The notes below the pieces were generated by a model. The model searched no databases and was not told the origin of the DNA. It saw only the letters and a list, made by a program, of their open reading frames with translations. Source: a virus. From it: a stretch of 40,334 nt of DNA. The position numbers and the translations under genes were made by a program. The DNA is taken from the IMG/VR virus record IMGVR_UViG_3300042934_000428, positions 1 through 40,334 of that record. One strand, given 5' to 3'. Numbering within the stretch: the stretch's first letter is position 1; each line of letters begins with the position of its first letter. Positions 31,067-34,759 of the stretch are shown here, piece after piece.

Positions 31067-31359
31067 GCTACGACGTGACCGCGGGTGGCGAGTGGTTCAA
31101 CATCACCTCGAACATGCACCGATTCTTTAAACGGTTCGACGTGTACCCGCCCGACTGGCATGGGAAGCCACGCGCCGAGGTCGCCGCCGCGATCGAGAAG
31201 GCGCTTGCGGACATCCGGTCCCACGACCTCGAGGCGCTGCGGGCCGAGTTCGACGCGCCGAACGGATGGGGCAACGTTCCAGTTGCCATCAACTGGCTCA
31301 TCGACATCCACCAGGCGTGCGTGCGCGTCTACCCCGACACGGTGGAGGTGTCCTGGTGA
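31063..31359 (+). CDS. Hypothetical protein
   Basis: 98 aa. Sequence YDVTAGGEWFNITSNMHRFF and WHGKPRAEVAAAIEKALADI, with GWGNVPVAINWLIDIHQACV near the end, is mixed alpha/beta. No family recognised. It ends overlapping the WhiB gene. Confidence 0.58.
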   Translation: MSYDVTAGGEWFNITSNMHRFFKRFDVYPPDWHGKPRAEVAAAIEKALADIRSHDLEALRAEFDAPNGWGNVPVAINWLIDIHQACVRVYPDTVEVSW

Positions 31360-31619
31360 TCCCTCTTCCTCGTATCACCCCTACCAGCACCGTGACCGAC
31401 ATTGCTGAGGAGTGGATGGATCGCGCGGCGTGCGCCACAACCGACCCCGACCTGTTCTCACCGGAACCGGGTGGGCGCACGACGGCCGCTAAGCGTATCT
31501 GCGGCACGTGCGAGGTCAAGGATGAGTGCCTCGCGTACGCCCTCCATCACAACCTCCGGTACGCGATCTACGGCGGCCTGTCCGACCGGGAACGCGCCGC
31601 ACTCAGGAGAACAACATGA
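31356..31619 (+). CDS. WhiB-family transcription factor
   Basis: 87 aa from GTG 31356 overlapping the previous stop. Four conserved Cys (Cys26, Cys49, Cys52, Cys58; DRAACATTDPDLF, then ICGTCEVKDEC) would bind a 4Fe-4S cluster. The turn IYGGL (about 71-75) replaces the usual GVWGG. WhiB proteins occur only in Actinobacteria and their phages. Phage versions such as WhiB of TM4 interfere with host WhiB2 and septation and promote superinfection exclusion. Its stop overlaps the methyltransferase ATG. Confidence 0.93.
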   Translation: MIPLPRITPTSTVTDIAEEWMDRAACATTDPDLFSPEPGGRTTAAKRICGTCEVKDECLAYALHHNLRYAIYGGLSDRERAALRRTT

Positions 31620-32722
31620 GCGCGCTCACGATTGGTTCGTTGTGCTCTGGCTACGGCGGGCTGGATCTCGCTGTGGAGTCGTTCTTCGGCGCGGAGACGG
31701 CATGGTTCTCGGAGTTCGAAGCGGCACCGTCGAAGGTGCTCGAGGCTCACTGGCCGGGCGTCCCGAACCTGGGCGACATGACCAAGATCGACTGGGCATC
31801 CGTCGAACCTGTGGACATCGTCACCGGGGGCACACCCTGCCAGGACCTCAGCGCCGCCGGCCGACGCCGCGGCATGACCGAAGGCACCCGCTCCAACCTG
31901 TGGGTGCAGATGCGCGAATGCATCGCGGCCGTGAAGCCGCAGATCGTCGTGTGGGAGAACGTGAGAGGTGCGTACAGTGCACGAGCCGATAGCGACGTGG
32001 AATCCGAACCGGGACTGCTGGGAATCGGACCGGATCGACCTGCTCTCCGGGCGCTCGGACGTGTACTCGGAGACCTTTCCGATCTCGGGTTCGATGCGGA
32101 GTGGGTCGGTGTTCGCGCGTCCGACGCAGGTGCACCGCACGGACGGTTCCGTGTCTTCGTCGTTGCCTACTCCTCGAGCAACGCGCGGCGGGTCCGGAAC
32201 GGAGACGATGTACATGCTTGGCGGGGAACGCTCGGACGAGTCAAGGCCGCAGGGCGAAGTGCTGCTCCCGTCCCCACGGACATCGGACACGAACGGACCC
32301 GGGATGCACGGAACTGGGGGCTTGGATCTGCGGACGGCGGTCACGCTGCTGCCGACACCGACCGCGATGGACTCGAAGTCGTCGGGAGGATCGACACCAT
32401 CCGACGTGACGCTCACGGATCTCGCGGTGCGCACAGTTCTTGGGGCGCGTACGAACCCGCGATTCGACGCTGGGAACATGTCCTCGGACGAGTAGCCCCG
32501 GCGCCGACGAACCCGGATGGGAAGGGCGGTGCTCACCGTCTAGCGCCCGAGTTCGTCGAGTGGATGATGGGCCTCCTCGCCGGCCACGTGACCGACGTCG
32601 GGATCTCGCGTGCAGAGCAGTTGAAGGCGCTCGGCAACGGTGTTATCCCTCAGCAGGCCGAGCTCGCGCTGTCGATTGCGTGGCCGCGTCTTGCTGACGT
32701 GCGAGAGGCGGTGGCAGCATGA
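31616..32722 (+). CDS. DNA cytosine-5 methyltransferase
   Basis: 368 aa, ATG 31616. Motif I SLCSGYGGLD, motif IV GGTPCQDLSAAG with catalytic Cys75, motif VI VVWENVRG (Glu114), motif VIII APHGRFRVF (Arg177, Arg179) and motif X KALGNGVIP (340-345) are all present in order. Such enzymes protect phage DNA from host restriction. Residues about 121-293, between motifs VI and X and including the target-recognition region, are also coding in another frame (31977-32495). An HNH gene follows with a 4-nt overlap. Confidence 0.93.
   Translation: MSALTIGSLCSGYGGLDLAVESFFGAETAWFSEFEAAPSKVLEAHWPGVPNLGDMTKIDWASVEPVDIVTGGTPCQDLSAAGRRRGMTEGTRSNLWVQMRECIAAVKPQIVVWENVRGAYSARADSDVESEPGLLGIGPDRPALRALGRVLGDLSDLGFDAEWVGVRASDAGAPHGRFRVFVVAYSSSNARRVRNGDDVHAWRGTLGRVKAAGRSAAPVPTDIGHERTRDARNWGLGSADGGHAAADTDRDGLEVVGRIDTIRRDAHGSRGAHSSWGAYEPAIRRWEHVLGRVAPAPTNPDGKGGAHRLAPEFVEWMMGLLAGHVTDVGISRAEQLKALGNGVIPQQAELALSIAWPRLADVREAVAA
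31977..32495 (+). CDS. Overlapping ORF inside the methyltransferase gene
   Basis: 172 aa from GTG 31977 (GAGAGG 8 nt upstream), in the +1 frame relative to the methyltransferase. It contains EPIATWNPNRDCWESDRIDL, SETFPISGSMRSGSVFARPT, SSSLPTPRATRGGSGTETMY, EVLLPSPRTSD and TLLPTPTAMDS. Repeated LLPTP/LPTP motifs and a non-random composition are unlike a shadow frame. From memory, similar LPTP-repeat proteins occur in alternative frames of other phage methyltransferase genes. Function unknown; it could modify or regulate the enzyme. Confidence 0.55.
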   Translation: MHEPIATWNPNRDCWESDRIDLLSGRSDVYSETFPISGSMRSGSVFARPTQVHRTDGSVSSSLPTPRATRGGSGTETMYMLGGERSDESRPQGEVLLPSPRTSDTNGPGMHGTGGLDLRTAVTLLPTPTAMDSKSSGGSTPSDVTLTDLAVRTVLGARTNPRFDAGNMSSDE

Positions 32723-33063
32723 CGTGGCCGCACAAGATCCGAGTCCAGGTGGTCAACCGCTCCGGTGGTGTCTGCGAGGGCTGCGGGAAGCGTGAAGCGT
32801 CCGACATTCACCACCGCCAGTTCAAGTCGCGTGGCGGGAAGGACATCGTCCAGAACGCGATTCTGCTGTGCGGTTGGGGGAATAACGCGAACGAGGGCTG
32901 GTGCCACGGACGCGCCCACAACGACCCGGGAGCGGTGATCGACGGGTGGACTGTCGCGTCTTGGGATGACCCGAAGTCGAAACCGGTCATGTACCGCGGC
33001 CAGTGGGCGTATCTCCTCGACCGGGCGCCGTGGATCGAACCCCTCGGGCTGGTGGTCTTCTGA
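32719..33063 (+). CDS. HNH-type endonuclease-like protein
   Basis: 114 aa. Zinc/HNH pattern: VCEGCGKREASDIHHRQFKS with Cys19, Cys22, His31, His32, then NAILLCG, and CHGRAHNDPG. A tryptophan-rich C-terminus follows (GQWAYLLDRAPWIEPLGLVV). It may cut DNA near the methylated site or serve in packaging or recombination. Placement next to the methyltransferase suggests a possible linked function, but no recognition data are available. Confidence 0.78.
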   Translation: MTWPHKIRVQVVNRSGGVCEGCGKREASDIHHRQFKSRGGKDIVQNAILLCGWGNNANEGWCHGRAHNDPGAVIDGWTVASWDDPKSKPVMYRGQWAYLLDRAPWIEPLGLVVF

Positions 33064-33607: not shown

Positions 33608-33888
33608 GGGTCCAGTTCGAGCTTCCGGATGACGTGTGGTGGCGGTTCACGCAACGAGCGGAGGAAGCCGGGTACCAGGCGCGTGAGTACTTCGCGCACC
33701 TCATCTCCACCGAGGTCGTCACCCCGAGGTCGGAGCAGATCACTGAATCTGTTCTCCGACTCCACCACGCCGGGTTGACGGTCCCGATGATCGCCCGCCG
33801 CCTCAACATGACGAACTCGGCGGTCCAGACACGGCTCTACAGCAACGGGCTGAGGGCCAACAAACGAAACGAAAGGCAGGCCAGCTAA
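33604..33888 (+). CDS. DNA-binding protein with RHH-like and HTH parts
   Basis: 94 aa from GTG 33604. The N-terminal FELPDDVWWRFTQRAEEAGY followed by QAREYFAHLIS looks like a ribbon-helix-helix unit. The C-terminal half (ESVLRLHHAGLTVPMIARRL, then NMTNSAVQTRLYSNGL) looks like a HTH. A two-domain repressor or replication accessory is plausible. It overlaps the HNH gene by one base (TAATG). Confidence 0.62.
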   Translation: MRVQFELPDDVWWRFTQRAEEAGYQAREYFAHLISTEVVTPRSEQITESVLRLHHAGLTVPMIARRLNMTNSAVQTRLYSNGLRANKRNERQAS

Positions 33889-34331
33889 TGGCGAACAGCA
33901 TTCGCGATGTGTCAGCCGGCTTGATCGAGGCAGCCAAGCGGCGATTCACAGAGCGCATCACTAACGATGCCTCCGGATGCCACGAATGGCTCGGCTCTCG
34001 GACCACAGACGGCTATGGAGTCTTAGTCGTGGGTGGTCGCAAGATTCGAGCCCACCGCTTCGCTTTCGAGGTTGAGAACGGAGCCATCCCTGACGGGTTG
34101 GTGATCGACCACCTCTGCTGCAACACCCTGTGCGTCAACGCGGCACATCTGGAAGCGGTGACCCACGAGGAGAACACAAGGCGTGCTGGGGCGCGTCAGA
34201 CGTCGTGTCGTCGTCAAGGGCACGACTGGACACAACCAATGAACGTGCGCACTCGAAGGAATGGCCTTCGCTACTGCGCTGAATGCGATCGAGAAGCAAG
34301 CCGCTCATGGCGGGAAAGGAAGGCATCATGA
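33888..34331 (+). CDS. HNH homing endonuclease (HNH_3-like)
   Basis: 147 aa. TTDGYGVLVVGGRKIRAHRF, then GAIPDGLVIDHLCCNTLCVN and AAHLEAVTHEENTRR is the classical HNH_3 pattern, with a C-terminal Cys pair (CRRQGHDW, RYCAECDRE). Freestanding genes of this type are mobile and sit in operons by chance, so it may have inserted before ssb. It is neatly coupled at both ends (TAATG, ATGA), which shows it has been accommodated. Confidence 0.85.
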   Translation: MANSIRDVSAGLIEAAKRRFTERITNDASGCHEWLGSRTTDGYGVLVVGGRKIRAHRFAFEVENGAIPDGLVIDHLCCNTLCVNAAHLEAVTHEENTRRAGARQTSCRRQGHDWTQPMNVRTRRNGLRYCAECDREASRSWRERKAS

Positions 34332-34759
34332 CCGAGCTGATCACTATTCACGGCGGGCTGACGTCCGCGCCAGAACTTCGCTACTCCGGCAACGGTGTCG
34401 CCATCGCTTCCGGAACCGTCGCGTCTACCGAGCGTTACCAGCGTGACGGTGAATGGCGGGACGGGAAGAAGCTTTACCTGCGTTGGTCGGCGTTCAAAGA
34501 CCTGGCGGAGAACATCGCCGCGTCCGCGCTCGACAAGGGCGCACACGTCGTCATCTCGGGGAAGCTGCACACCCGCGAGTGGGAAGACCGGGACGGCGGG
34601 AAGCGGTCATCGGTCGAGCTCGAGGTGACGGACTTCGCGATGTCGCTCAAGCGGGCGACGGTGACGGTGCAGAAGATCGACCGCCGTGAGGCGCCGGTTG
34701 CGTCTCAGGACGTGTGGAACACCACGGAGGGGGTGAGCGGCGATGACACGCCCTTCTGA
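34328..34759 (+). CDS. ssb: Single-stranded DNA-binding protein
   Basis: 143 aa from ATG 34328. OB-fold signs: ITIHGGLTSAPELRYSGNGV, SGTVASTERYQRDGEWRDGK, LRWSAFKDLAENIAAS and GAHVVISGKLHTREWEDRDG, followed by VTDFAMSLKRAT. The tail is acidic and ends DDTPF, the usual SSB partner-binding tip. It protects single-stranded DNA in phage replication and recombination. Translation is coupled to the homing endonuclease upstream. Confidence 0.92.
   Translation: MTELITIHGGLTSAPELRYSGNGVAIASGTVASTERYQRDGEWRDGKKLYLRWSAFKDLAENIAASALDKGAHVVISGKLHTREWEDRDGGKRSSVELEVTDFAMSLKRATVTVQKIDRREAPVASQDVWNTTEGVSGDDTPF

Follow-up and report, generated by a model that had tools for sequence, protein, structure and literature searches.

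The window analysed here, meaning the whole stretch of DNA under study, is a virus record of 40,334 bases that carries a C5-cytosine DNA methyltransferase (MTase) gene, here termed alpha, and, nested within it in the +1 frame, a second open reading frame, termed beta. The features on which the analysis depends are these:

31616..32722, + strand: alpha, C5-cytosine DNA methyltransferase, 368 aa (PF00145, E 1.3e-28; phrog_363, E 3.5e-71; translation)
31963..31968, + strand: Shine-Dalgarno (SD)-like GAGAGG of beta, 8 nt before GTG 31977 (sequence; Arg codon bias in homologs)
31977..32495, + strand: beta, nested +1 ORF with GTG start, 172 aa (phrog_1008, E 7e-19; conservation in homologs)
31977..32162, + strand: beta head, ~62 aa, W-N-P...WE...ETxPxSGxxRxG (+1 conservation in 59 genes)
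32163..32264, + strand: LPTP cassette 1, LPTPRATRGGSGTETMYMLGGERSDESRPQGEVL (same sequence type in loci L151, L152, L155 and L248)
32265..32348, + strand: LPTP cassette 2, LPSPRTSDTNGPGMHGTGGLDLRTAVTL (same type in the +1 frame of L014 and L103 and in frame 0 of L089 and L093)
32349..32432, + strand: LPTP cassette 3, LPTPTAMDSKSSGGSTPSDVTLTDLAVRT (cassette family F5, 12 genes)
32438..32683, + strand: alpha C-terminal block in frame 0, WGAYEPAIRRWE..PAPT..EFVEWMMGL..ALGNGV (tblastn; phrog_1008 positions 227-315)

The alpha frame is uninterrupted from 31616 to 32722, and its translation has the motifs I-VIII and X, with PCQ and ENV, of a C5-cytosine DNA methyltransferase (PF00145): motif I (SLCSGYGG), PCQ, ENV, motif VIII, the motif IX-like EFVEWMMGL and motif X (ALGNGV) are all in place. 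A first-pass annotation had described this frame as intact from motif I to motif X, and had reported within it a +1 frame open for 172 codons at 31977-32495 with a GAGAGG ribosome site and LPTP blocks; translation and the motif set bear out the former, and the latter elements are all present in the sequence. The beta frame is additionally open from GTG 31968. Its head, in which W8, W15 and S37 are invariant, overlaps the code for alpha motifs VI-VIII and is conserved in all architectures described below; LPTP-type blocks then start at 32163 (LPTP), 32265 (LPSP) and 32349 (LPTP), and the stop codon falls within the first part of the alpha C-terminal block. Read in the MTase frame, the DNA of cassette 3 encodes AADTDRDGL. 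Beta matches phrog_1008, a profile annotated as DNA methyltransferase, over residues 2-147 (E 7.3e-19), spanning head and cassettes, and 39 of 39 betas match the same profile. Searches with beta gave no match to HNH or any other Pfam family, or to NCBIfam, and no convincing match among solved structures.

Upstream lies a gene for a WhiB-family regulator (31266-31619; PF02467, E 7.5e-22), whose stop codon overlaps the MTase start in the ATGA at 31616, an arrangement that suggests translational coupling. Two HNH endonuclease-like genes follow just downstream of the MTase, at 32719-33063 (PF01844, E 2.9e-5) and 33888-34331 (PF13392, E 1.4e-15), and after them an SSB gene (34283-34759; PF00436).

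Conservation of the nested frame and its start site

When the synonymous codons of alpha were permuted, a +1 run as long as that of beta arose in 20% of shuffles, and the interval 31977-32492 was stop-free in +1 in 16%; the length of the ORF was accordingly rejected as evidence (P ~0.16-0.2). Three LPTP-like motifs in +1 appeared in none of 5000 such permutations. The LPTP motifs are thus beyond what such permutation yields, as the first-pass annotation had argued for its LPTP blocks; length by itself is not significant. On the minus strand, a 322-aa open frame (31568-32536) runs antisense to the MTase and is probably a shadow of the GC-rich sequence; so long a frame over the same gene makes ORF length poor evidence here.

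We gathered MTase homologs from viral contigs, reduced them to 59 with <92% nucleotide identity, and compared their similarity in +1 with a null in which frame-0 synonymous codons were resampled according to the usage of each gene. From the beta start codon onward, +1 similarity exceeded the resampled level by z 20-35 per 10-codon window, against z of about -1 to 11 in windows upstream, values that we attribute to shared ancestry; the z values are descriptive, since windows overlap and sequences are related, and the evidence lies in the contrast between regions. The step in conservation falls directly after ENVRGxxSA, the site of the beta start. The head was found in +1 in all 59 aligned homologs, with z values of 35, 21 and 16 in the architectural classes A, B and C defined below. 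The first-pass annotation had suggested that dual coding may be selected, and had proposed that stops in the +1 frame of homologs, or equal synonymous variation inside and outside the overlap, would speak against it. The head, the part shared by the 59 genes, contains 0 stops in +1 where ~40 are expected (minimum 25 in 200 resamplings), and differences at alpha fourfold sites amount to 0.287 inside the overlap versus 0.541 outside. The suggestion thus gains support: conservation of the second frame goes beyond the level forced by the first and synonymous variation is lowered, the pattern of an overlapping gene under selection. These comparisons demonstrate selection on the predicted +1 protein.

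The start site bears a further signature. The Ser codon of ENVRGxxSA is AGT in 42 of 59 genes, as opposed to 18 of 522 other Ser codons (p 7e-36), and AGT-GC at this position yields the +1 GTG. The Arg codon preceding that Ser is AGA or AGG in 37 of 55 homologs versus 63 of 704 other Arg codons (p 9e-23), a preference that builds the SD of beta. In genes without AGT the Asn codon of ENV is mostly AAT, which places an ATG 18 nt upstream, preceded by a GGTGATC-like sequence. The two solutions, AGT giving GTG and AAT giving ATG, are nearly mutually exclusive (AAC/AGT 41, AAC/other 4, AAT/other 13, AAT/AGT 1; p 8e-9). Codon choice in the homologs thereby shows the putative start site of beta to be maintained by selection in two alternative forms. 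One class C locus (L029) has an open +1 ORF with no ATG, GTG or TTG at the usual place, and may use another start or a frameshift.

Architectures and exchangeable cassettes

Three architectures account for most of the homologs, 6 of the 59 being unclassified. In class A (32 of 59, including the window), alpha is continuous to motif X and beta is nested, consisting of head and cassettes. Class B (13 of 59) has the cassettes in alpha's own frame, between motifs VIII and IX, and the beta head as a +1 ORF of 73-115 codons; in class C (8 of 59, e.g. L014, L029 and L077), alpha ends after motif VIII, and beta comprises head, cassettes and motifs IX-X. Conservation of the head in class B loci (including L231, L232, L233 and L093), where the cassettes are already in alpha's frame, suggests that the head has a role of its own, one that cannot be delivery of a target-recognition domain (TRD) alone. 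Among distant loci outside the Actinobacteria, read by eye and numbering one to a few for each group, phages of Microcystis, Bacteroides, Porphyromonas, Lacticaseibacillus and Stenotrophomonas and a Leptolyngbya plasmid carry an ORF, nested in +1, that has a PTP motif together with motif IX; the corresponding alpha has motif X without IX. Across these layouts the coding boundary between alpha and beta moves while the head stays in +1. Class B has its LPTP units in frame 0, classes A and C have theirs in +1, so that frames have been switched in evolution; the comparison of sequences shows cassettes and motifs IX-X to have moved between the two frames.

Past the head, beta is built of units starting with LPTP, or with LKTP, LRTP and similar sequences. 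Of 199 such units in 57 genes, 175 belong to 13 families (F0-F12), each of which recurs in 4 or more genes, at varying positions and in all classes. This distribution shows a limited set of predicted cassettes shuffled among phages. The very long beta ORFs of L077 and L251 (501 and 422 codons, with 7-8 cassettes) are extremes of accumulation.

Nested cassette pairs from class A genes, compared by frame-neutral blastn, differ by 0.136, 0.122 and 0.386 at LPTP codon positions 1, 2 and 3, closely resembling the class B values (0.136, 0.103 and 0.408), where LPTP is alpha's own frame. At the amino acid level the class A cassettes are 0.82 identical when read in the LPTP frame, as against 0.52 for the MTase reading and 0.51 for the third frame; even in pairs picked by MTase-frame similarity, identity is higher in the LPTP frame (0.50 versus 0.47). 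With its identity level with that of the third frame, the MTase reading over the cassettes shows no detectable constraint on its own sequence. Even so, the frame stays open: class A MTase frames have 0 stops in 5577 codons over the cassettes versus 146 expected from LPTP constraint alone, and, class A being defined by an open alpha frame, this means that genes of this kind are much more numerous than chance would allow. The predicted alpha frame is thereby shown to be kept open by simultaneous selection. The first-pass suggestion of a second product inside an MTase gene is refined by this: over the cassettes, a picture of the MTase as primary and the second ORF as an addition is reversed, since conservation there lies with LPTP in +1 and the MTase reading is a stop-free passenger. 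A +1 sequence LPTPTAxD becomes ADTDRxG when read in frame 0, and the ADTD-like spacers of these MTases are explained in this way.

A probable second polypeptide and the rival explanations

We consider it probable, from sequence comparison, that beta is a real nested gene, internally initiated, whose product is most likely the second polypeptide of a split C5-methyltransferase concerned with target recognition. Ribosomes would initiate internally at GTG 31977, using the SD GAGAGG, and so translate beta independently; alpha would supply the cofactor site, catalysis and motifs IX-X; and beta, with its head and three interchangeable LPTP cassettes, would supply or modulate target recognition in the variable region. 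We infer that both products are made and associate with each other, and that the cassettes read DNA; class A alpha, having all motifs, might act alone. The partner-subunit role appears likeliest because the class B cassettes lie in alpha's recognition region and those of class C are joined to motifs IX-X; the presence of cassettes in the MTase's own frame elsewhere likewise favours a role as subunit or in specificity over an unrelated second protein. AlphaFold modelled just the MTase core, with M.HhaI as best match, and, weakly, the head. The window beta was predicted at low confidence (pLDDT 58; head ~63-80, cassettes ~50), and the cassettes of class B alpha appeared unfolded (pLDDT ~25-30), so that a cassette fold and its contact with DNA find no support in these models.

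In M.EcoHK31I, the gene of the large subunit also encodes the small subunit, in a different reading frame. In this natural two-polypeptide C5-MTase (YGGCCR), the large subunit has motifs I-VIII and X and the small subunit IX, and it is the large subunit, not the small, that contains the predicted TRD (PMC3404938), a point against recognition by beta. The distant +1-nested pairs (L292, L301-L305) divide their motifs between alpha and beta as M.EcoHK31I does. In the window, unlike M.EcoHK31I, motif IX is in alpha, and beta lacks IX and bears an LPTP cassette array; we therefore do not claim membership of the M.EcoHK31I type for the window. M.AquI also comprises two polypeptides, the large with motifs I-VIII and the small with the distal variable region and IX-X (PMC3404938), a layout matching the class C loci L014, L029 and L077, whereas the window alpha retains IX-X and its beta is fully nested. 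The LPTP motif (PTPT/PTPR/PTPV) partially fits the TL motif of C5-MTase recognition domains, P(STCA)PT(ILV)(TASV) (PMC2413257). As in the multispecific C5-MTases of Bacillus phages (SPR and H2, with tandem TRDs), which the cassette shuffling also recalls, a phage C5-MTase has several modules in its variable region; unlike in those enzymes, most modules here are in another reading frame. An out-of-frame ORF within an actinophage DNA methylase gene is also known in the ShiLan-type hidden HNH; that is a mobile insertion coding for an HNH endonuclease, whereas beta is a conserved sequence and neither an insertion nor HNH.

Other explanations fare less well. It is hardly tenable that beta is a chance shadow ORF of a GC-rich gene, open through base composition and codon bias. 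The window gene taken alone makes a +1 run of this length no rarity (P ~0.2), and other long shadow ORFs exist at the locus, but +1-specific conservation, the choice of start codon, the absence of stops and protein-like substitutions in +1 refute chance in the homologs; with these included, the pattern lies far beyond chance. A relic of frame switching, in which indels placed an in-frame LPTP region into +1 and translation has since been lost, would agree with the frame 0 position of LPTP in class B as opposed to +1 in A and C; we regard it as very improbable, since the class A +1 cassettes are under the same protein constraint as those of class B and the beta start site is maintained.

Programmed frameshifting in place of internal initiation would have ribosomes change from alpha to the LPTP frame by slippage, with a return in class A, making one class B-like chain. 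A continuous chain of just this sort is what class B has, and one +1 shift in class C would produce its like. We nonetheless judge this improbable: class A would need two opposite shifts, the head, upstream of the cassettes, would go unused, and the features under selection are an SD and start codon at the upstream edge of the head, kept in two alternative forms, which favours internal initiation. A live if unlikely alternative is that beta is a separate protein that does not read DNA and rides on the MTase gene, e.g. to regulate or inhibit either the MTase or host restriction. Conservation of the head in class B (z 21), where alpha holds the cassettes, the disordered look of the cassettes in AlphaFold and the presence of all motifs in class A alpha would suit such a protein; the location of the class B cassettes in alpha's variable region, the fusion of class C cassettes to motifs IX-X and the presence of motif IX in distant nested ORFs argue against it.

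A wider reading, which we hold tentatively, is that actinophages, along with phages of several other phyla in which the arrangement is simpler, may possess split C5-methyltransferases whose target recognition resides in cassettes shuffled from a small library and encoded in +1 inside the catalytic gene, the catalytic frame being merely stop-free there; indels would swap cassettes and motifs IX-X between frames, and the benefit could be multispecific self-protection against host restriction. If so, a large group of orphan phage C5-MTases would be two-component enzymes, and their ADTD-like spacer repeats would be explained as shadow readings of LPTP cassettes. The system would also allow cassette content to be matched to methylation motifs; the loci themselves show a protein segment moving between overlapping frames during evolution.

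Distribution and annotation

The beta head is carried by 496 of 50,697 phage records. A survey of 396 actinobacterial genomes gave 7 matches, pointing to a gene mainly of phages and prophages. Members of the family are already annotated (Babsiella gp55, which is nested, Arturo gp75 and Samy_50); the literature searched, outside which most subscription papers fell, yielded no paper on a nested beta of actinophages. Beta appears to be a real, selected and overlooked overlapping gene; long, on the same strand as alpha and strongly selected, it is absent from the annotation or cut short in several hundred phage records. In inspected records with one continuous MTase (e.g. L313 and L314), the second gene is unannotated. 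In six checked phages (L311, L310, L315, L309, L312 and L293), the annotated beta starts lie 54-123 open codons late and omit the conserved head.
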